Part shown: piece after piece, positions 7,834-32,645 of the stretch | How the letters are laid out: every line of letters starts with the position of its first letter | Position numbering within the stretch: the first letter of the stretch is position 1 | NCBI GenBank assembly: GCA_031268245.1 | Contig: JAIRXN010000122.1 | Location: 1 to 32,645, forward strand | Source: Treponema sp. | GTDB lineage: Bacteria > Spirochaetota > Spirochaetia > Treponematales > Breznakiellaceae | Length of the DNA: 32,645 bases | Direction of reading: 5' to 3' | Position numbers and translations under genes: made by a program | The notes under the pieces: generated by a model | Told to the model about the DNA's origin: nothing | What the model saw: only the letters and a program-made list of their open reading frames with translations | Databases searched by the model: none

Positions 7834-9420
7834 CTATTCGAGTATATACCGGAGATCCCCGGAATTCCTAGACTCAAGAAACAGCCCTTCCCAGGAACCG
7901 CCGTCTTTATCTATACGGATTGTACCTGTTCCTTCTTCTGCCTTGAGAACCGAGGAGGCAAAACCAGCTATAAGATCGGCTGTTTTGACCGGATAGTCTT
8001 CCCCTGTCCAGATTTTTTTCCCTTTTCCCCTTAAAAGGAGGGAATATAAGGGTTTTGTCACCGGGATACTGCTGTAATCCAGCGAGCCTGCCCCCGGAAC
8101 AGCGGCAAGCAGCCGGGGCCCGGAAACACTTCGGGTAAATACCTGAAAAAGCGCCCCATAAACACTACCTGCCTCCTCTGCCCCTGTCCCGAAAGCCCTG
8201 TCGGAAACCACAAGCAGGATGGGTTTCCCGGTTTCCGGAGGCTCTGCAAGACCGGAAATTTTTAACGAATTGAAGCCCCTCAGATTGAGGCCCCTTAGCC
8301 GGTTCCGGAGATTGATACGAAAACGGAATATCACTCCCGATCCTTCGGGAATATCTTCAGGCTGATCTTCTTCCCCCTGCATAAGAGACCAGAAATTGCT
8401 TTCTATAGTAATTATGCCGGAAATTTCCGGCTTTGTGCTGTCAGATTCCCTGTTTTCGGATGCATAGTACAGGGCTCCCCCTCCTCCGGCATTGTAACCT
8501 GCAAGAAAAATACTCTCCTTAACGGTATCCGGGCCGAAAAGAGGGCCTTCCGCCTCACTATTTTGTAGAAAACGGGGGAGAAGAAAGCGGAGATCCTCCA
8601 GTCTTCCGGTTTCCAGGCTTCGGCCTATGGCGTTGGCTTTAACCTGTACGGCTCCTTTCAGGTAAAGACGCAGAAAACGGCCCTGAAGAAACGGTGAAAG
8701 AATATATTTCCGGAAAGTTCCTCCGGCGGCAAAGCCCGGGACTCCCCTCCTGAGGGAGAACCCGCTGCGGACCGGCGCCGTATTCCGTTCATCCGGGCCC
8801 AGGGCCGGTGAGTCAAAGCCTTTACGGGAATATGTTACCGCGGTAAAACCGAGCCGCCTCAGTTCATCGCAAACCGGATCTATTACAGGAACCGAACCTG
8901 ATTCCGGGGGAATAATAAGAACCAGGGGATGTTTACCTTCTACGGGACTGTCATAGATCCGTACAAAATAGTCCCGGCCCTGTTTTTCATCCCGGATAGG
9001 GATGGTTCGTACCCCTTCAGATACCGGAATTTCCTCTTTTTGCGGGGCAAAAAGGTAGGCCGGAAGGAGAAAAAGTCCCAAAAACAGGAGGGAGAGGACC
9101 TTGAATAGAGGGTTCGGATAGCCGGAATCTTCATCGGAAAAACCGCCGTCGTTCCGTCTCCGGCTTGAAGCGAAACGGATAATCAGGATAAAATTGTAGG
9201 CAAAAGCGTATACAAGCAGAGGGATACATTCAAGCCGGAACCCATAGGCGGGAAAGATCCCCGCCGTGATGAACAGGGCGAGCAGGGGGAGCCGGTTGAG
9301 GCCGGGCAGTTCTTCAAGCGCCTTGAAAAAACTCTGCAACTGGGGGAGAAAGAGAAACAGAACTATAATTGTTTCAGGTATCCAAATCTCTTTTATCATA
9401 TTTTTTATTCCAAAATCCAC
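7834..9420 (-). CDS. Membrane protein with a C-terminal alpha/beta-hydrolase (dienelactone hydrolase-like) region
   Basis: N-terminal TM helices; YDSPVEGKHPLVLIIPPESGSVPVIDPVCDELRRLGFTAVTYSRKGFDSP; FLAGYNAGGGGALYYA (nucleophile-elbow position). Confidence 0.6.
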   Translation of the reverse strand: MDFGIKNMIKEIWIPETIIVLFLFLPQLQSFFKALEELPGLNRLPLLALFITAGIFPAYGFRLECIPLLVYAFAYNFILIIRFASSRRRNDGGFSDEDSGYPNPLFKVLSLLFLGLFLLPAYLFAPQKEEIPVSEGVRTIPIRDEKQGRDYFVRIYDSPVEGKHPLVLIIPPESGSVPVIDPVCDELRRLGFTAVTYSRKGFDSPALGPDERNTAPVRSGFSLRRGVPGFAAGGTFRKYILSPFLQGRFLRLYLKGAVQVKANAIGRSLETGRLEDLRFLLPRFLQNSEAEGPLFGPDTVKESIFLAGYNAGGGGALYYASENRESDSTKPEISGIITIESNFWSLMQGEEDQPEDIPEGSGVIFRFRINLRNRLRGLNLRGFNSLKISGLAEPPETGKPILLVVSDRAFGTGAEEAGSVYGALFQVFTRSVSGPRLLAAVPGAGSLDYSSIPVTKPLYSLLLRGKGKKIWTGEDYPVKTADLIAGFASSVLKAEEGTGTIRIDKDGGSWEGLFLESRNSGDLRYILE

Positions 9421-9585
9421 TCTCGACCGTAAATCCGGCGGAAAGTATGTTGATCAATATGTAAATACATCATATAGTCATAATAATAACATATAATATC
9501 AGGATCAGGTTCGGCTTTGAGAGATGTTTAGTCGTATCTCTGTGTTTATGTGTTTCAAAGCCCCATTCTTCTTGAAGGAATATTT

Positions 9586-11082
9586 ATGGCTACTGTTAAG
9601 GAATTGGTTGTCGATGAGGCTAAGATAAAAAAAGCCGTCCAATCGGGTATTCCCCTTACCATAACAACTTTTACCCTTCCCCATGAGATTGAAGTCTATA
9701 TAGAAGGGGTATTAACCGTTTTTCTCAGGCAGGTGGATCAGGAAAAACTTAAAGATTATATCGTCTACTGTGTGCAGGAACTGGCGGTTAACGCAAAAAA
9801 AGCCAATACCAAGCGGGTTTACTTCATTGAACGGGGTCTGGATCTGGCAAATCCTGATGATTACAAGGAAGGAATGGCCAGTTTCAAGGAAAATACCCTG
9901 AATAATATAGGCCATTATCTGCAGCTTCAGAAAGAAAAGGGTCTCTACATCAAACTTATCTTCCAGATAAAGAAGAATATCATCCATATCGAAGTACGGA
10001 ACAATGTGGCGGTAACCAAGACGGAGCTTATCCGTATTCATGACAAGCTGGCCCGTTCCCGGCAGTACAATAACCTGGAAGACGCTCTGGCTCAGGTCTT
10101 GGATGATTCCGAAGGCGCCGGTCTCGGGCTGGTTATCCTGGTGCTGATGCTCAAAAAGATGGGGCTTGATGAGGACTGTTTCGATATTCTCAGTACCGAT
10201 GAAGAAACCATTGTCAGGCTTATCATTCCTCTGGATAAGACAAGGGTAGAAGGTCTCTCTATGCTTACCGAGACCATTGTCAACAACGTAAATTCCCTGC
10301 CCCAGTTCCCCGAAAACGTCATGATGGTTCAGAAACTCATTTCCGATCCCAAGTCCACTATGGTCAGTATTGCCCGGCAGATCTCCATGGATCCTGCCTT
10401 GACGGCAGATCTTCTCAAGATCGTCAATTCCGCCCAGTATATGCTTGCAAAAAAAGTAGATAGTATCTCCGATGCGGTCAAAATGGTGGGTATCCGGGGA
10501 ATCAAAAATCTGCTTTACTCCTATGGAACCCAGAAGATCCTGGGGGACGAAACTTCGGAAAAGAAACAACTCTGGGAACATTCCTACAAGACCGCTTTCT
10601 ATGCATATAACCTTGTCAAGAATTTCAAGAAAAATCATAACCTCCTTGACGATGTATATGTGGCGGGTATCCTGCACGATATGGGGAAGATTATCTTCTC
10701 CAATGTACATCCGGATCTGCTCAACAAGATAAAAGCCCTGTGCGGCGAAAAGAATTTACCCGCTTCTACGTTTGAAGACCTTGCCGCCGGTATGAACCAT
10801 GCAGAAATCGGCGCTCTTATTGCCGAAAAATGGAATTTTCCCGAAGGTCTTATAGAAGCCATCCGTTTTCACCATGATCCGGAGAGCGCCGCTCCTGAAT
10901 ATCAGGATCTGGTCGACACGGTGTATCTTGCCAATATGTTCTGTGAATATGAAATCGGCAATGTCGTCTATGATCAGATGGATCCGGCGATACTGAAAAG
11001 TTTTGAAATCACTTCACAAAAGCAGGTCGACAACCTGCTGGAACGCTTTTCCCAGGGTTTCAAGAAAGAAAATATACATTAG
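9586..11082 (+). CDS. GHKL ATPase-like domain fused to an HDOD domain, signalling protein
   Basis: N-box-like QELAVNAKKAN, G-box EGAGLGLVILV; HDOD region LPQFPENVMMVQKLISDPKSTMVSIARQISMDPALTADLLKIVNSAQY...VAGILHDMGKIIF. ATG at 9586 with gaagga upstream preferred over 9550. Confidence 0.8.
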   Translation: MATVKELVVDEAKIKKAVQSGIPLTITTFTLPHEIEVYIEGVLTVFLRQVDQEKLKDYIVYCVQELAVNAKKANTKRVYFIERGLDLANPDDYKEGMASFKENTLNNIGHYLQLQKEKGLYIKLIFQIKKNIIHIEVRNNVAVTKTELIRIHDKLARSRQYNNLEDALAQVLDDSEGAGLGLVILVLMLKKMGLDEDCFDILSTDEETIVRLIIPLDKTRVEGLSMLTETIVNNVNSLPQFPENVMMVQKLISDPKSTMVSIARQISMDPALTADLLKIVNSAQYMLAKKVDSISDAVKMVGIRGIKNLLYSYGTQKILGDETSEKKQLWEHSYKTAFYAYNLVKNFKKNHNLLDDVYVAGILHDMGKIIFSNVHPDLLNKIKALCGEKNLPASTFEDLAAGMNHAEIGALIAEKWNFPEGLIEAIRFHHDPESAAPEYQDLVDTVYLANMFCEYEIGNVVYDQMDPAILKSFEITSQKQVDNLLERFSQGFKKENIH

Positions 11083-11119
11083 ACTTGTTCAGTAACCAAC
11101 CGGGTTACTGAACAAGTCT
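11081..11119 (+). repeat. Solo 17-bp-stem hairpin (element C) overlapping the HDOD stop codon; related to hairpin 3 of elements A and B
   Basis: agacttgttcagtaacc-aaccg-ggttactgaacaagtct, 17-bp perfect stem; 27/39 identical to GAGCTTGTTCCGAAACTAACCGGGTTTTGGAACAAGCTC of element B, ungapped manual count. Confidence 0.75.
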
Positions 11120-11251
11120 ATTAGCAGCCCGGGCCTGCATCGCTATCCCGAAAGCCGCCGATACATTGAGACTTCCCTTCCTGCGCTCATTCGGGAATTT
11201 TGCTATTTCTTGTACCGTTTGGGCATCAGGCGGATGAAGCGCAACAGGCTG
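11105..11251 (-). pseudogene. 48-codon coding remnant in frame after the Fe-ADH-like stop; SpoU/TrmH C-terminus-like
   Basis: Minus-strand reading after TAG(11254-11252): QPVALHPPDAQTVQEIAKFPNERRKGSLNVSAAFGIAMQARAANRLVQ then TAA. SLNVSAAFGIA resembles SpoU motif 3. Confidence 0.4.
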
Positions 11252-12806: not shown

Positions 12807-13499
12807 TTAGTTTACCACCGTCTTATCTTTCTTGCCAGATACAAAAACCGAAAATTCTCCTTTTTGTTCGCTTTTCTGTACCAAATTTGAGTATATCAGA
12901 GAAACGGTTCCCCGTAAATACTCTTCGTGAACCTTGGTCATTTCCCGGCCCACACAAACATATCTTTCACTATCAAATTCGGCTAGATCTTCGAAAAGTT
13001 TGAGAATTCTGAAGGGAGATTCATAAATAACAAAGGCGTTCCCGGTTTCAAGCAGTTCCTTCAGCCTTGCCCTGCGTCTTCCCTGTTTTGGGGACAAAAA
13101 ACCTTCAAAAATGACGGTTTTATCCATGGCCCCGGCTACACTGAGGAGAGAGGCAAAGGCTGAAGGCCCCGGAATCGGGATAACCTGGTGCCCTGCTTCG
13201 GCAGCCAGCCGGGAGAGAAGGGCGCCGGGGTCGCTGAGGGCAGGTGTACCCGCATCGCTGGCATAGGCTATGATTTTCCCTTCGTCAAGGAATTTTATAA
13301 GCTTTTCCGCGGCAAATTTTTCGTTTTGGGAACGGCAGGATACAAGCCGGACACCGATTCCAAAATGGCTTAAGAGTTTTGACGTTCTCCGGGTATCCTC
13401 ACAGGCAACAAGATCCGCTGTTTTGAGGGTTTCCACAGCCCGGAAACTTAAATCACCGAGATTCCCGATGGGGGTGCCGATAATATAAAGAATACCCAC
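12807..13499 (-). CDS. rsmI: 16S rRNA (cytidine-2'-O-)-methyltransferase
   Basis: MGILYIIGTPIGNLGDLSFRAVETLKTADLVACEDTRRTSKLLSHFGI; AYASDAGTPALSDPG; IPIPGPSAFASLLSVAG; FEGFLSPKQGRRRARL. Confidence 0.95.
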   Translation of the reverse strand: MGILYIIGTPIGNLGDLSFRAVETLKTADLVACEDTRRTSKLLSHFGIGVRLVSCRSQNEKFAAEKLIKFLDEGKIIAYASDAGTPALSDPGALLSRLAAEAGHQVIPIPGPSAFASLLSVAGAMDKTVIFEGFLSPKQGRRRARLKELLETGNAFVIYESPFRILKLFEDLAEFDSERYVCVGREMTKVHEEYLRGTVSLIYSNLVQKSEQKGEFSVFVSGKKDKTVVN

Positions 13500-13523: not shown

Positions 13524-13540
13524 GAGTATTCGGAATACTC
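13524..13540. repeat. Short hairpin in the rsmI upstream region
   Basis: gagtatt-cgg-aatactc, 7-bp perfect stem. Confidence 0.5.
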
Positions 13541-13664
13541 TGAGGCTCTTTCAAAACTTCAGTTTTGAAAGAGCAACCTCTAAAAAATGCGGTTTTACAG
13601 CCCGTAGGGCGAAAAACCGCAAGAGCTTCTGCAAAACTTGCCCGAGTTTTGCAAGAAGCTCCTC
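13541..13664 (+). repeat. Three-hairpin compound element, copy A
   Basis: TGAGG closing arm; hairpin 1 gctctttcaaaac-ttca-gttttgaaagagc (13545-13574 region); hairpin 2 gcggtttt...aaaaccgc (13589-13620) with inner gccc-gta-gggc; hairpin 3 gagcttctgcaaaact...agttttgcaagaagctc (13623-13661); CCTC closing arm. Confidence 0.85.
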
Positions 13665-13673
13665 TTACGGAAA

Positions 13674-14114
13674 ATGAGGAGCGCCGGAAATTTGAGGGAC
13701 CTTATTCAGATTCTTATATTTATTTTGATCGGTCTCGTGCTGCTCTGGTTTGGTTATACTCTCTATTTCAGCCCGCAGGGTATTTTTTTCGGATTTGAAA
13801 AAAAGAAAAAACGCGGCCGCGGGCCGAGAGGAGAAGGCAGACCCGGAGCCCCCCAGACCTGTCCGGTATGCTCCGCGCTGCTCTCTCCGGGGGAACTGGT
13901 AAAATCAGTCGCTTTTCCGTCTTTTACCGGAAAAGACCGGCTTATGTATATTTCGGGCTGCACGTACTGCCTTAACGGAGACCGCCGGCGATCCTGTCCG
14001 GTCTGCGGAAGGCGGCTCCATGATGATGAAATCCTGGTTGCGCGGATGTTTGATCGTCCCCGCCGCAGCCATGTTCATGTTATCGGCTGCAGCTACTGCC
14101 GTTTAAAGAAATGA
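13674..14114 (+). CDS. Single-TM protein with double CxxC zinc-ribbon motifs
   Basis: MRSAGNLRDLIQILIFILIGLVLLWFGYTLYF...CPVC..CTYC..CPVC..CSYC. The 13638 start would place the first residues inside element A, so ATG 13674 is preferred. Confidence 0.7.
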   Translation: MRSAGNLRDLIQILIFILIGLVLLWFGYTLYFSPQGIFFGFEKKKKRGRGPRGEGRPGAPQTCPVCSALLSPGELVKSVAFPSFTGKDRLMYISGCTYCLNGDRRRSCPVCGRRLHDDEILVARMFDRPRRSHVHVIGCSYCRLKK

Positions 14115-17151: not shown

Positions 17152-19275
17152 TTGTTAGGGAAATTGAAGTTTTCGAACAAACTAATGTTGAAACCCATGA
17201 CTATTTTTTATAAGATGTTTGTACAAATGAATATTACCGAGATCCAGGATGAATTATTCCGCCTTGAGTATCCCAATCTTTCACGGGATCACGATCCCGA
17301 TATAGAACGGTATTTCTATCTGAGGGGTATCGGCCAGTCTCAGGACGCTCTGTTTATCTTTCAAAACCGAATCATCCCCCGGTACCCGGATCCGCTTTTC
17401 CGTACAGAGCTGATGAGGAGTTACCGCAAGCACAGTTCTTCTTTCCGTTTACTGCTTGATGCAGGCTACAGGGCTCTTGCGGCCCGCTCCCTGGAACGGA
17501 TACGGGCTATTCTGGGCTACATTGCCAAAAAAATTGAGACCTATAATCCCAGAGACATTTATTCAACGATAAAAACCGCGGAGGATATCCTGGCCTTGCT
17601 GCCCAGGGAACGTTACGAGGCGGTTGAGGGGATGGATCGTTTTTCCCGTTATGCCGATGCCCTGGAATTCCATCAAAAGTCGATTTTTCGCGCTTCGGAA
17701 TTGATCCGATCCTACCTTAACCAGTCTCTTTCGGTGATTGAAGACGAAAGACGCAGACAGGAGAGGCTCAGGCTAAGGGAAGAGAAGCGGAAACGGCAGC
17801 GTCTGGTAAAGGAAGATTGGGAAAGTTACCGTAGACAGAAACTTTACGGCTTCTCCGGCCCGGCTATCGATTTTTCCAGAGTGGTTTTTTCTCCGGCAGA
17901 CCTTGCACGCATCGAAATTCCATCCCGTTTTTCCAGTCTGGAAGACCAGACCCTGGCCTTCTGTGTCAAATACTGGAATTTTATCAATGATTCGGCTTTT
18001 GAACGCATACTTTTCCTCTATTCCCGCAAGTTTGGAAAGAAGAATTACGATGTATTTCTCGCCATCCGGCGGGGAAGGGCGGCCAAACGGCGGGATGACG
18101 AGATTCTCGCTTCGGTGCTTTCCTCTCTGACGACCGGTTACTACTATTCAATCCGGGGTGACCGTTATCTGCAGCGTAACTGGAATAGTCTCAAATATGC
18201 TTTGGAAAATGCCGGAAGGTTACGGGCGCTGCCCGCTCCCGCTTCAGGCGGCGCAGAAGCCTTGCGGGTTTCCACGGAGGCGGCTTTACCCGCGGCCTCC
18301 GGATTGGCTGCCTTACCGTCACCGAAAGGGGCTCCTTCCGCGGAGGGCGCTGCCGGGCCGCAGCGAAGCGGAGCCTCCTCCCGGACTGCAAGCGCCGGGA
18401 GCGGGCAAAGGAAAATAGGAACCGTAAAGAAACTGAAGATTGCCCCTGCAAAGACCTCTTCGGCCGGGGAGACCAAGATTGCCCCCGCAAGGCCGAATCA
18501 ACAACCCCGCCCTAAAGGGACGGGGTATGTTGGTTCTGATAGGTATGGATTGTATGCGGGATCCAATACCCATGAACCAACGGCGGATACCAGTATTAAA
18601 ACCGCCCTGAAGGGCGGGGTATTGGACCCGCCTGCGAATAAAACGTTTGCGGTAATACCGCCTTCGAAACCGGCCTTGCCTAAGAAACCTGCTGCGGCTG
18701 TAAAGCCGGTTTTGCCCGCACAGCCGAAATTGCTGCCTGCCAAACCGTCCGGCCAAAGTGTTTCTGCGCAGCCGGTCATTGTGAAACCGGCCGCCGTGAA
18801 TGTATCTCCGCCTCCAAAGCCGGTCAAAGCTGCCGTTCCGCCGCCTTCTGAACCGTCCCGGCAGAGTCTCCCCGAATCCAGGACAGGGATCTCCCAGGCT
18901 GCGGCAGAGGCCAAGCCCGGCGAACCGCCCCGCCGCAAAATTCGGCGCAACGCTGAAGTTCCCATAGAGCCTGCGGGTTCTTCGGTTTCGGACAGGCTTA
19001 GGCAGCTTTCGGGCCGTTCCTACGATTTGTACCAGGATCGTTTTCTTACCCATGTCCGCCAGGCCATACGCAAGGTACTCAGTTCAGGCCGCGGTATTTT
19101 CTTTACCCTGGGCGAAGATGCGGAGGATCTGGTATACAACTTCCTGGAGGCTCATTACTCCGATCCGTACATGAACTGGGCGGAAAGCGCCGAAAGGAGG
19201 GAACTTGCGGCCCTGGGCTTTGAACTTGAATCCCTTAATTCCATTATTGACGAATGTTACAAACGGCTGAATTAG
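17152..19275 (+). CDS. Large hypothetical protein with conserved N- and C-terminal regions and an Ala/Pro-rich disordered middle; start uncertain (17152, 17185 or 17227)
   Basis: Long single ORF; charged helical N-terminus; low-complexity Pro/Ala/Lys section about residues 365-600; conserved-looking C-terminus (LSGRSYDLYQDRFLTHVRQAIRKVLSSGRGIFFTLGEDAEDLV). Confidence 0.7.
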   Translation: MLGKLKFSNKLMLKPMTIFYKMFVQMNITEIQDELFRLEYPNLSRDHDPDIERYFYLRGIGQSQDALFIFQNRIIPRYPDPLFRTELMRSYRKHSSSFRLLLDAGYRALAARSLERIRAILGYIAKKIETYNPRDIYSTIKTAEDILALLPRERYEAVEGMDRFSRYADALEFHQKSIFRASELIRSYLNQSLSVIEDERRRQERLRLREEKRKRQRLVKEDWESYRRQKLYGFSGPAIDFSRVVFSPADLARIEIPSRFSSLEDQTLAFCVKYWNFINDSAFERILFLYSRKFGKKNYDVFLAIRRGRAAKRRDDEILASVLSSLTTGYYYSIRGDRYLQRNWNSLKYALENAGRLRALPAPASGGAEALRVSTEAALPAASGLAALPSPKGAPSAEGAAGPQRSGASSRTASAGSGQRKIGTVKKLKIAPAKTSSAGETKIAPARPNQQPRPKGTGYVGSDRYGLYAGSNTHEPTADTSIKTALKGGVLDPPANKTFAVIPPSKPALPKKPAAAVKPVLPAQPKLLPAKPSGQSVSAQPVIVKPAAVNVSPPPKPVKAAVPPPSEPSRQSLPESRTGISQAAAEAKPGEPPRRKIRRNAEVPIEPAGSSVSDRLRQLSGRSYDLYQDRFLTHVRQAIRKVLSSGRGIFFTLGEDAEDLVYNFLEAHYSDPYMNWAESAERRELAALGFELESLNSIIDECYKRLN
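18496..18631 (+). repeat. In-frame palindromic element inside the CDS
   Basis: Hairpin aatcaacaaccccgccct-aa-agggacggggtatgttggtt (18496-18535); arms gcgggatccaatacc (18556-18570)/ggtattggacccgc (18618-18631); inner ccgccct-ga-agggcgg (18602-18617). Confidence 0.75.
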
Positions 19276-19373
19276 GAGCCGCGCGTGAATAGAATGCCAT
19301 GCATTTTATTCTAATTGCTTACGCAATAAGGAAATAACACGGCCCGGGGTCATGTTATTTCTGCGTGGGTCCT
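19274..19373 (+). repeat. Three-hairpin structure closed by an outer stem (element D), at the stop codon of the upstream CDS
   Basis: Outer aggagccgcgcg (19274-19285) / tgcgtgggtcct (19362-19373), one mismatch; inner gaatagaatgc-cat-gcattttattc (19287-19311), attgc-ttac-gcaat (19314-19327), gaaataaca...tgttatttc (19331-19361). Confidence 0.65.
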
Positions 19374-19529
19374 TAGTGTCTGTCTATAAAGTCGGTTGTT
19401 GTTCGTCAATACCTCGCTGAACCGCTCCGGTTCAAGCCCGTCAAGTAACCGGGTATCTGTATGTTGCAGGGTATTTTTTCACTTCAAGATTGTACTATTG
19501 ATAAATGATCCCATGTCTATGTCTAAAAA

Positions 19530-19561
19530 AAATTTACTTCCGTAAATTTGTGTAGTATAAT
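19530..19561 (+). promoter_or_regulatory. Putative promoter/operator of the AraC-family gene
   Basis: Hairpin aaatttac-ttcc-gtaaattt (19530-19549) overlapping the -35 area of a TATAAT box (19556-19561); CDS starts 19583. Confidence 0.35.
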
Positions 19562-27339: not shown

Positions 27340-27445
27340 CCCGCCGCCAGGATGATCACGGCGCAGGGAACCCTCGCTTACCGTTGCTTCCTTCCGGATC
27401 TGGCGGAGTTGGGCGCAGCCCCCTCGCATGGTTCCTGGCGGCGGG
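27340..27445 (-). ncRNA. ffs: Bacterial small SRP RNA (4.5S type)
   Basis: Minus strand cccgccgccagga...CCAGATCCGGAAGGAAGCAACGG...tcctggcggcggg: conserved SRP domain (GGAAGGAAGCA apical motif) closed by a 13-bp perfect terminal stem. Confidence 0.92.
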
Positions 27446-31555: not shown

Positions 31556-32389
31556 ATGACAGATCTGCGCGGAACAGAGCTTGTTAAGGAAAGTGGAACG
31601 GCAGGAAAAATGCGCCTGGCATCCCGGGAAAGCCTTCGGGCCTCGGTGGTTTTTTTGATCGTCCTCCTCCTTCTCTTCGGCCTCTCCACAGGCTTTACCC
31701 GGTTTAACCCTGTCGCCGTCCTGTTTTCACAAGGGGAATTCTGGAACTTCATCTTCGCCGATTTTGTTCCTCCGTCTATGGGAAGGCTTGAGTCCCTGTT
31801 CCGGGCGGTGATGCAGACCGCCTACATGGCCCTGGCGGCCACGGGGATCTCGGCGATTGCGGCCTTTTTTCTAAGTTTTCTGGGAACCCCGGCAATAACC
31901 CGTTCGGTTTTGATCAATTCGGCAGTCCGGACCTTTGCTTCGATTCTCCGAAACATTCCTACCCTGGTATGGGCCTTTATTCTGGTCGCGGCCTTCGGCA
32001 TAGGGACCGTGGTAGGCGTCCTGTCCCTGATCATCGGTACTACCGGGTACCTCACCAGGTTTTTCATCGAGATCTTGGATGAGGCCGCTGAGGAAACCAT
32101 GGAACCCCTGCTGGCCGCCGGGGCCCCCATGCCCTCCATTGTAACCCAGTCCCTGCTGCCCGGGGCAATGCCGGGTTTTATCGCATGGATCCTCTACTGC
32201 GTGGAACTGAACATCCGGGCCTCCACGATCCTCGGCATGGTTGGGGCCGGCGGCATCGGACTCCTGCTTATGGGTTACATCAAACAGTTTAACTACGCCG
32301 CAGCGTCTACCGCGATTATCGCCGTGGCGATCATCATCATCGGGGTAAACCTGCTTACCAATTACCTGCGAAAACTGATTATGAGGTGA
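31556..32389 (+). CDS. phnE: Phosphonate-type ABC transporter permease (PhnE family)
   Basis: 277 aa; MQTAYMALAATGISAIAAFFLSFLG; RTFASILRNIPTLVWAFILVAAFGIGTVVGVLSLIIGTTGYLTRFFIEILDEA; GMVGAGGIGLLL. Confidence 0.92.
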   Translation: MTDLRGTELVKESGTAGKMRLASRESLRASVVFLIVLLLLFGLSTGFTRFNPVAVLFSQGEFWNFIFADFVPPSMGRLESLFRAVMQTAYMALAATGISAIAAFFLSFLGTPAITRSVLINSAVRTFASILRNIPTLVWAFILVAAFGIGTVVGVLSLIIGTTGYLTRFFIEILDEAAEETMEPLLAAGAPMPSIVTQSLLPGAMPGFIAWILYCVELNIRASTILGMVGAGGIGLLLMGYIKQFNYAAASTAIIAVAIIIIGVNLLTNYLRKLIMR

Positions 32390-32507
32390 GCTTGTTCCAA
32401 AACCCGGTTAGTTTCGGAACAAGCTCTTGGAAAAACCGGCAAAGGCCCGGTTTTTCCACTAAATTCAAGGTAGCTGTTCCAAAAACTGAAGTTTTGGAAC
32501 AGCCTCA
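32382..32507 (-). repeat. Three-hairpin compound element, copy B, overlapping the phnE stop codon
   Basis: gagcttgttcc...ggaacaagctc (32388-32426); tggaaaaaccgg...ccggtttttcca (32428-32458); gctgttccaaaa...ttttggaacagc (32473-32503); outer tgagg/cctca (32382-32386/32503-32507). Reverse complement aligns with copy A. Confidence 0.85.
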
Positions 32508-32532
32508 GGTAGAAAGCAATATGAAGCGTTCC

Positions 32533-32645
32533 CTAAGCCCTCATCCGGCCGGAAGAACCCCTCTTAATCAGCCTGCCCGGAATGATCACTTCCCTGGGCT
32601 TGCTCTTGTCGTCCGAGAGCATCCTTTTCAGGAGAAAGTCGGCGA
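32533..32645 (-). CDS. C-terminal fragment of a LacI-type transcriptional regulator, truncated by the window edge
   Basis: Minus strand ...ADFLLKRMLSDDKSKPREVIIPGRLIKRGSSGRMRA*; REVIIPxxLIxRGSS is the typical LacI/PBP1 C-terminus. Confidence 0.7.
   Translation of the reverse strand, partial: ADFLLKRMLSDDKSKPREVIIPGRLIKRGSSGRMRA

Follow-up and report, generated by a model that had tools for sequence, protein, structure and literature searches.

The closest described case that was found for the element reported here is MITEPye1 of Paracoccus yeei (PMC11578231). It is a small non-autonomous element with terminal repeats (TIRs) of the IS1182 type and with direct repeats, and its transcript is predicted to form stem-loops. 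It has been described for one species with 1-3 copies per chromosome and contains a long stem-loop (PMC11578231). In contrast, the spirochaete element has dozens of copies per genome, is spread order-wide, is built from three separate hairpins, comprises many stem subfamilies, and has mobile single hairpins at its side. A further point of comparison is bcr1 of the Bacillus cereus group, a structured, mobile dispersed repeat of about 150 bp with an average of 39 copies per strain (PMC6542083, PMC2267715). Compared by description, both are abundant structured mobile repeats, but bcr1 is found in one species group and is linked to TTTAT motifs. REP and BIME repeats are short dispersed palindromes of 20-40 bp, solo or composite (PMC3733652, PMC2817692). 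REPs are tied to RAYT transposases, whereas the spirochaete element has 4-bp target duplications (TSDs) and DDE-type ends. Neither a MITE of Treponema nor an IS1182 MITE in spirochaetes was found in the literature.

The analysis concerned a stretch of 32,645 bp of a Treponema sp. genome (the window), in which a preliminary description had noticed a three-hairpin element and a distant inverted copy. Both copies (A and B) were confirmed to be present. Their limits had included some TSD bases and were refined, so that the following features are distinguished:

13542-13661, plus strand: copy A, three-hairpin MITE of subfamily A, 120 bp, site empty in the sister species G002 and G003
13538-13541, no strand: TSD CTCT, left flank of copy A
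13662-13665, no strand: TSD CTCT, right flank of copy A
13545-13574, plus strand: hairpin H1 of copy A, a TIR with its own inverted copy, loop TTCA
13589-13620, plus strand: hairpin H2 of copy A, the central hairpin
13623-13661, plus strand: hairpin H3 of copy A, a short loop between two TIRs that face each other, the 3' TIR being the outer arm
32388-32506, minus strand: copy B, three-hairpin MITE of subfamily B, 119 bp, 90 bits with covariance model R1
32384-32387, no strand: TSD AGGT, one side of copy B, read directly
32507-32510, no strand: TSD AGGT, other side of copy B, read directly
11082-11119, no strand: copy C, solo single hairpin of subfamily C, 38 bp, empty site in G003
11078-11081, no strand: TSD ATTA, left flank of copy C
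11120-11123, no strand: TSD ATTA, right flank of copy C

The TIRs of copy A are GAGGCTCTTTCAAAAC and GAGCTTCTTGCAAAAC, with comparable ones in copy B and other copies, and a 14-nt linker separates its H1 from H2. Both A and B fold into three hairpins with energies well below those of shuffled sequences (z -9.6 and -9.1). Between the loci of A and B, the best pair of inverted repeats comprises 27 bp with 93% identity, and this match together with the roughly 40 additional places found with A in the genome excludes chance as the reason for the likeness. The H1 loop (CTTCAG), the linker length and the H3 loop are conserved between A and B, and the alignment of the two copies that had been proposed held for H1, the linker and H3. 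It did not hold for H2, where the sequences cannot be aligned and the presence of a hairpin alone is conserved. The compensated stem changes between the copies turned out to be genuine. The third copy that had been mentioned most plausibly refers to the solo hairpin C, bases 1-37 of which are identical to H3 of the three-hairpin copies in subfamily C.

A covariance model (R1) was built from 20 copies and matched 59 places in the host genome of 2.35 Mb at E<=1e-7, some of them partial. A BLAST search with copy A yielded about 40 separate places, several of which coincide with the ends of contigs, where a repeat that interrupts assembly would be expected. In a set of 61 genomes of close relatives, for which up to about 59 matches per genome were scored, R1 matches were found in 41. 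The copies are thus not confined to the window; such a confinement had been named beforehand as an argument against the proposed element. With a second covariance model (R2), 53 genomes of a phylum-wide sample of 395 were positive, and all but one of these belonged to the same order (the Treponema order). The three-hairpin elements range from 119 to 142 bp.

The movement of the element was analysed with 109 distinct full-length elements (100-150 bp), which were delimited by their ends. An exact 4-bp TSD was present in 58 of them, while repeats of 3 bp or 5-8 bp and shifted offsets gave 0-2 cases as controls, and 14 matched over 2 bp only. The TSD bases are A+T rich, and the final position is T or A in 53 of the 58. 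The other 51 copies are devoid of an exact TSD, for which age, recombination or misparsed ends come into question. The site of copy A is empty in both sister species G002 and G003, where the flanks are 91-97% identical and are joined at a single CTCT, and the site of copy C is empty in G003 with a single ATTA. At the copy B locus the downstream sequence of a relative is not collinear. The sequence past copy B (32507-32645 of the window) is not collinear with the sister contig G002:C72, which places copy B at a variable site or at the junction of a rearrangement. Isolated hairpins of 30-60 bp were screened as well. Six of 54 candidates were flanked by an exact 4-bp repeat, against about 0.2 expected by chance, and all six had a length of 37-40 bp, which indicated that single hairpins move as well; many of the remaining candidates are truncated elements. 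Two contigs (L007 and L010) share a tRNA-like flank after the element and differ upstream, with the TSD AAAA in L010 and none in L007, a pattern that suggests recombination between elements or misassembly.

Several insertions lie directly at genes. Copy C interrupts the stop codon of the HDOD gene at 9550-11082 and leaves the protein unaltered: the TAG is rebuilt from the duplication and the first G of the element, and G003 likewise has ATTAG at this place. Copy B likewise falls into a stop codon, that of a transport permease gene (31556-32389) adjoining a gene for a phosphonate-binding protein, where the duplication contributes the T and the element the GA of the TGA. Copy A is localized between a TP_methylase gene on the minus strand (12807-13499) and a small plus-strand gene, directly upstream of the likely ATG start of the latter at 13674. 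Based on rough ORF calls, 17 of 40 copies have a stop codon no more than 10 bp away, and neither position nor orientation relative to the adjacent genes showed a clear bias (orientation: 27 same, 14 opposite).

As a possible approach to identify a partner, related genomes were searched for transposase genes family by family, and the flanks of these genes were screened for the element ends. One DDE_Tnp_1 group (L117) stood out. Most other transposase loci had unrelated ends, and PF13751, considered as partner family, was absent from the host genome. Matches to the L117 group were present in 25 of 121 relatives, many of them partial, and a scan of GTDB genomes yielded 29 loci, mostly of spirochaetes. 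A comparison of near-identical copies in the complete genome G034 delimited an IS of 1217 bp with the ends GAGCCGATTTCAAAATC and the 4-bp TSDs TTAA and TCTA. Among the other members, the end GAGCCTGTTGCAAAAC also occurs, the TIR in L160 is GAGCCTCTTTCAAAAC, and the TIR GAGGCTGTTCCAAAAC of L164 and L165 is identical with copy B in 16 of 16 positions. The 4-bp TSDs of the IS are TTAA and TCTA (L163, L185), TCAA (L327) and ATAT (L346). The transposase contains the domain PF01609 (DDE_Tnp_1; 58.2 bits, cut-off 23) with conserved column blocks, which is common to the IS1182 family, e.g., ISUnCu17. IS1182 was also the best NCBIfam match (NF033551), and plasmid homologs with about 35% identity are annotated as IS1182 family. 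The NCBIfam scores of 79.9-101.9 bits did not reach the curated cut-off of 270, and thus the spirochaete enzymes form an outlying clade with respect to IS1182. The cognate transposase was not found in the host genome, the assembly of which is incomplete (77%). The four sister genomes contained a broken copy in G003 and a trace of 36 residues in G004, and no intact member was detected in the genus. Most genomes that harbor the element had no detectable partner at the sensitivity used, which leaves room for another transposase. Because the ends and the duplication length are common to the element and the IS, it was probably mobilized in trans by the IS1182-like IS.

The outer ends of the element, GAG-[GC]-CT-[CG]-TT-N-CAAAAC, are the TIRs of IS1182-like ISs in related spirochaetes. 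The full-size ISs of this group have plain ends without hairpins. H3 consists of two IS-type ends that face each other across 5-9 nt. At the locus L166 the order H1-linker-H2 is followed by an IS end at the expected start of H3, which fits H3 being an IS that collapsed to its two ends, as read from a single degraded locus with its other side off the contig. The possibility that L166 is an IS with H1-H2 as its right end was rejected, since the ends of L164, L165 and L169 place the IS end inside, at the start of H3, and H1-H2 in L166 is thus adjoining element sequence. The same plan with unrelated stems and an unrelated H2 occurs in other families of the order. In G048 the TSDs of such elements are ACTT, AACT, TACC, AATT, ATTT and CACT, one extra C being counted within the element, and in G447 they are TACA and AATA, while other elements of the same plan in that comparison had no TSD.

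Taken together, the element is short, non-coding and multi-copy, has TIRs, TSDs of fixed length and empty sites, and related ISs with the same ends occur in the order. It represents a new MITE family, abundant and widespread, which is distinguished by its three-hairpin design and has single-hairpin relatives that are mobile as well. The reading as a non-autonomous mobile element, one of several offered in the preliminary description, was borne out by copy number, 4-bp TSDs, empty sites and candidate autonomous partners whose ends match. Very probably it is a family of hairpin-built MITEs that carry the ends of an IS1182-like IS, are moved in trans, and keep their pairing while the sequence drifts. 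A DDE transposase of the IS1182-like group would recognize both outer ends in trans, cut out or copy the element, and insert it with a 4-bp stagger, which would result in the 4-bp duplications. H1 is a TIR followed by an inverted copy of itself, H2 is an independent hairpin, and H3 would in effect be the IS reduced to its ends; the solo hairpins of 37-40 bp are mobile as well. During sequence drift the inverted repeats stay paired, most likely through homogenization of their arms by template switching.

The conservation of pairing was quantified with an alignment of 104 copies. Standard pairs were present in 97.2% of the paired cells, and 30 of the 33 pairs showed changes on both sides. The covariation score was 0.455, whereas shuffles gave 0.140 and slid structures did not exceed 0.128. 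Because the alignment had been fitted to the structure, a tree-aware null was also run. It was modeled on R-scape and is approximate, and recombination between copies violates its tree. At E<0.05 five pairs passed, of which three belong to H1, one to H2 and one to H3, in contrast to zero of the several thousand remaining column pairs, so that covariation beyond phylogeny, the absence of which had been named beforehand as an argument against a conserved fold, is present. On the tree, 104 double Watson-Crick replacements were inferred, 50 of which involve transversions and do not pass through a wobble intermediate. Single steps led to G-T 45 times and to A-C 31 times, this asymmetry being weak as a test of RNA function. 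Recombination between copies is not taken into account by the tree and may inflate both the double changes and the covariation. The loops TTCA and AACCG are conserved, and the H1 loop occurs in inverted form (CTGAAG instead of CTTCAG) in three rows, one of which (L004) is otherwise 96% identical to copy A.

Several other explanations have to be weighed against mobility and pairing as outlined above. As an explanation, a fixed structured RNA at these loci or an ordinary pair of rho-independent terminators has practically no probability left: stable hairpins close to gene ends would fit, but copy A contains no terminator-like site with a hairpin followed by a T-tract, dozens of copies are dispersed with TSDs, and the empty sites already refute it. 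The preliminary claim that the two copies are not independent terminators is upheld by the same observations. Very improbable is also a movement of REP- or BIME-like repeats by a RAYT (Y1 tyrosine) transposase, since the 4-bp TSDs conflict with Y1 transposition and the ends match a DDE-type IS. Y1 transposition is not known to make target duplications. What speaks for this explanation are the dispersed intergenic single hairpins, which are REP-like in size at 20-40 bp (PMC3733652).

Two explanations concern why the stems stay paired. It is rather unlikely that selection on an RNA keeps the hairpins, which after insertion into transcripts could serve as mRNA stabilizer, processing site or attenuator; such a function would be compatible with mobility. 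The strong covariation in all three hairpins, the folding far beyond shuffles, the conserved loops and the many copies close to stop codons would be in accordance with it. Selection on one RNA strand should favor G-U, but A-C steps are almost as frequent as G-T steps, about half of the double changes contain transversions without a wobble intermediate, a clear bias of gene orientation is missing, and the element had no family match in an Rfam scan of the window. A similarly low probability is given to a fold that is required in the DNA, with end hairpins or cruciforms as transposase substrate or signal, so that paired copies alone spread. This explanation has its likeness in IS200/IS605 or RAYT enzymes, for which hairpins serve as substrate or signal. 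Each end is itself a hairpin, also where the stems differ considerably between subfamilies of the order, and the solo hairpins are mobile too. The terminal repeats of the cognate full-length ISs, however, are plain and free of hairpins, their 4-bp duplications are DDE-like, and their transposase thus does not need a hairpin. Polymerase template switching reportedly leaves arm homogenization together with spacer inversion as its mark (PMC8604942), and it has been argued that it can create and maintain RNA stems (PMC8794818). Because of the double changes with transversions, the near-parity of G-T and A-C and the loop inversions, templating was ranked first and selection at the DNA or RNA level second. 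Judged from these substitution patterns, the pairing would most likely be kept by arm homogenization through replication template switching, perhaps reinforced by selection on transposon ends. Selection and template-switch homogenization both stand as explanations of the pairing, and no feature points to RNA function in particular. A role as structured RNA or protein-bound cruciform, likewise offered in the preliminary description, is conceivable.

Further features were observed in the window and its counterparts. A 141-bp segment (18494-18634; 47 codons, in-frame) inside the ORF 17152-19275 is missing in G003 and G002 and contains the hairpins CCCCGCCCT...AGGGCGGGG, which we take to resemble IS200/IS605-type ends. 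A 117-bp in-frame segment (8679-8795) of the minus-strand ORF 7834-9420, which has no Pfam match, is not present in G003. The non-coding block 19283-19533 has no counterpart in G003. It contains GTGTCTGTCTATAAAGTCGGTT, which is one half of a hairpin from a further family, with a complete copy at G000:C232:5674. A different dispersed hairpin repeat, AGCGCTGATTTATTCTCGATTGAATAAATCAGCGCT, is found at the copy C site in G002 (L352, 1-60), and variants lie inside the degraded IS of G003 (L166, 421-475). The sole Rfam match in the window is a bacterial small SRP RNA (RF00169, 57.2 bits) at 27342-27440 on the minus strand. Tandem-like coding repeats of 111-120 bp (GGCGGCAACTTTACCATG...) are localized at 248-588 in the ORF 84-761.

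It is tempting to speculate, with somewhat less than even confidence, that a single perfect hairpin of 37-40 bp, which is no more than a pair of terminal repeats facing each other, constitutes a complete transposable unit that a DDE transposase moves with 4-bp duplications. The three-hairpin MITE would then be assembled from such units as modules, and throughout an order its pairing, rather than its sequence, would be under active maintenance. If so, the solo hairpins would be among the smallest known transposons, and the family would be a natural record of template switching during replication that keeps stems paired. With dozens of copies per genome and many stem subfamilies, which can be placed by TSDs and empty sites, it is a dense natural data set for the question whether covariation proves selection for structure or arises from template switching. 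Covariation in hairpins borne by repeats is not necessarily a sign of RNA function. The element also breaks metagenome assemblies at contig ends. It accounts for a big class of dispersed hairpins in genomes of the Treponema order, which would otherwise be taken for terminators, RNAs or regulatory sites.
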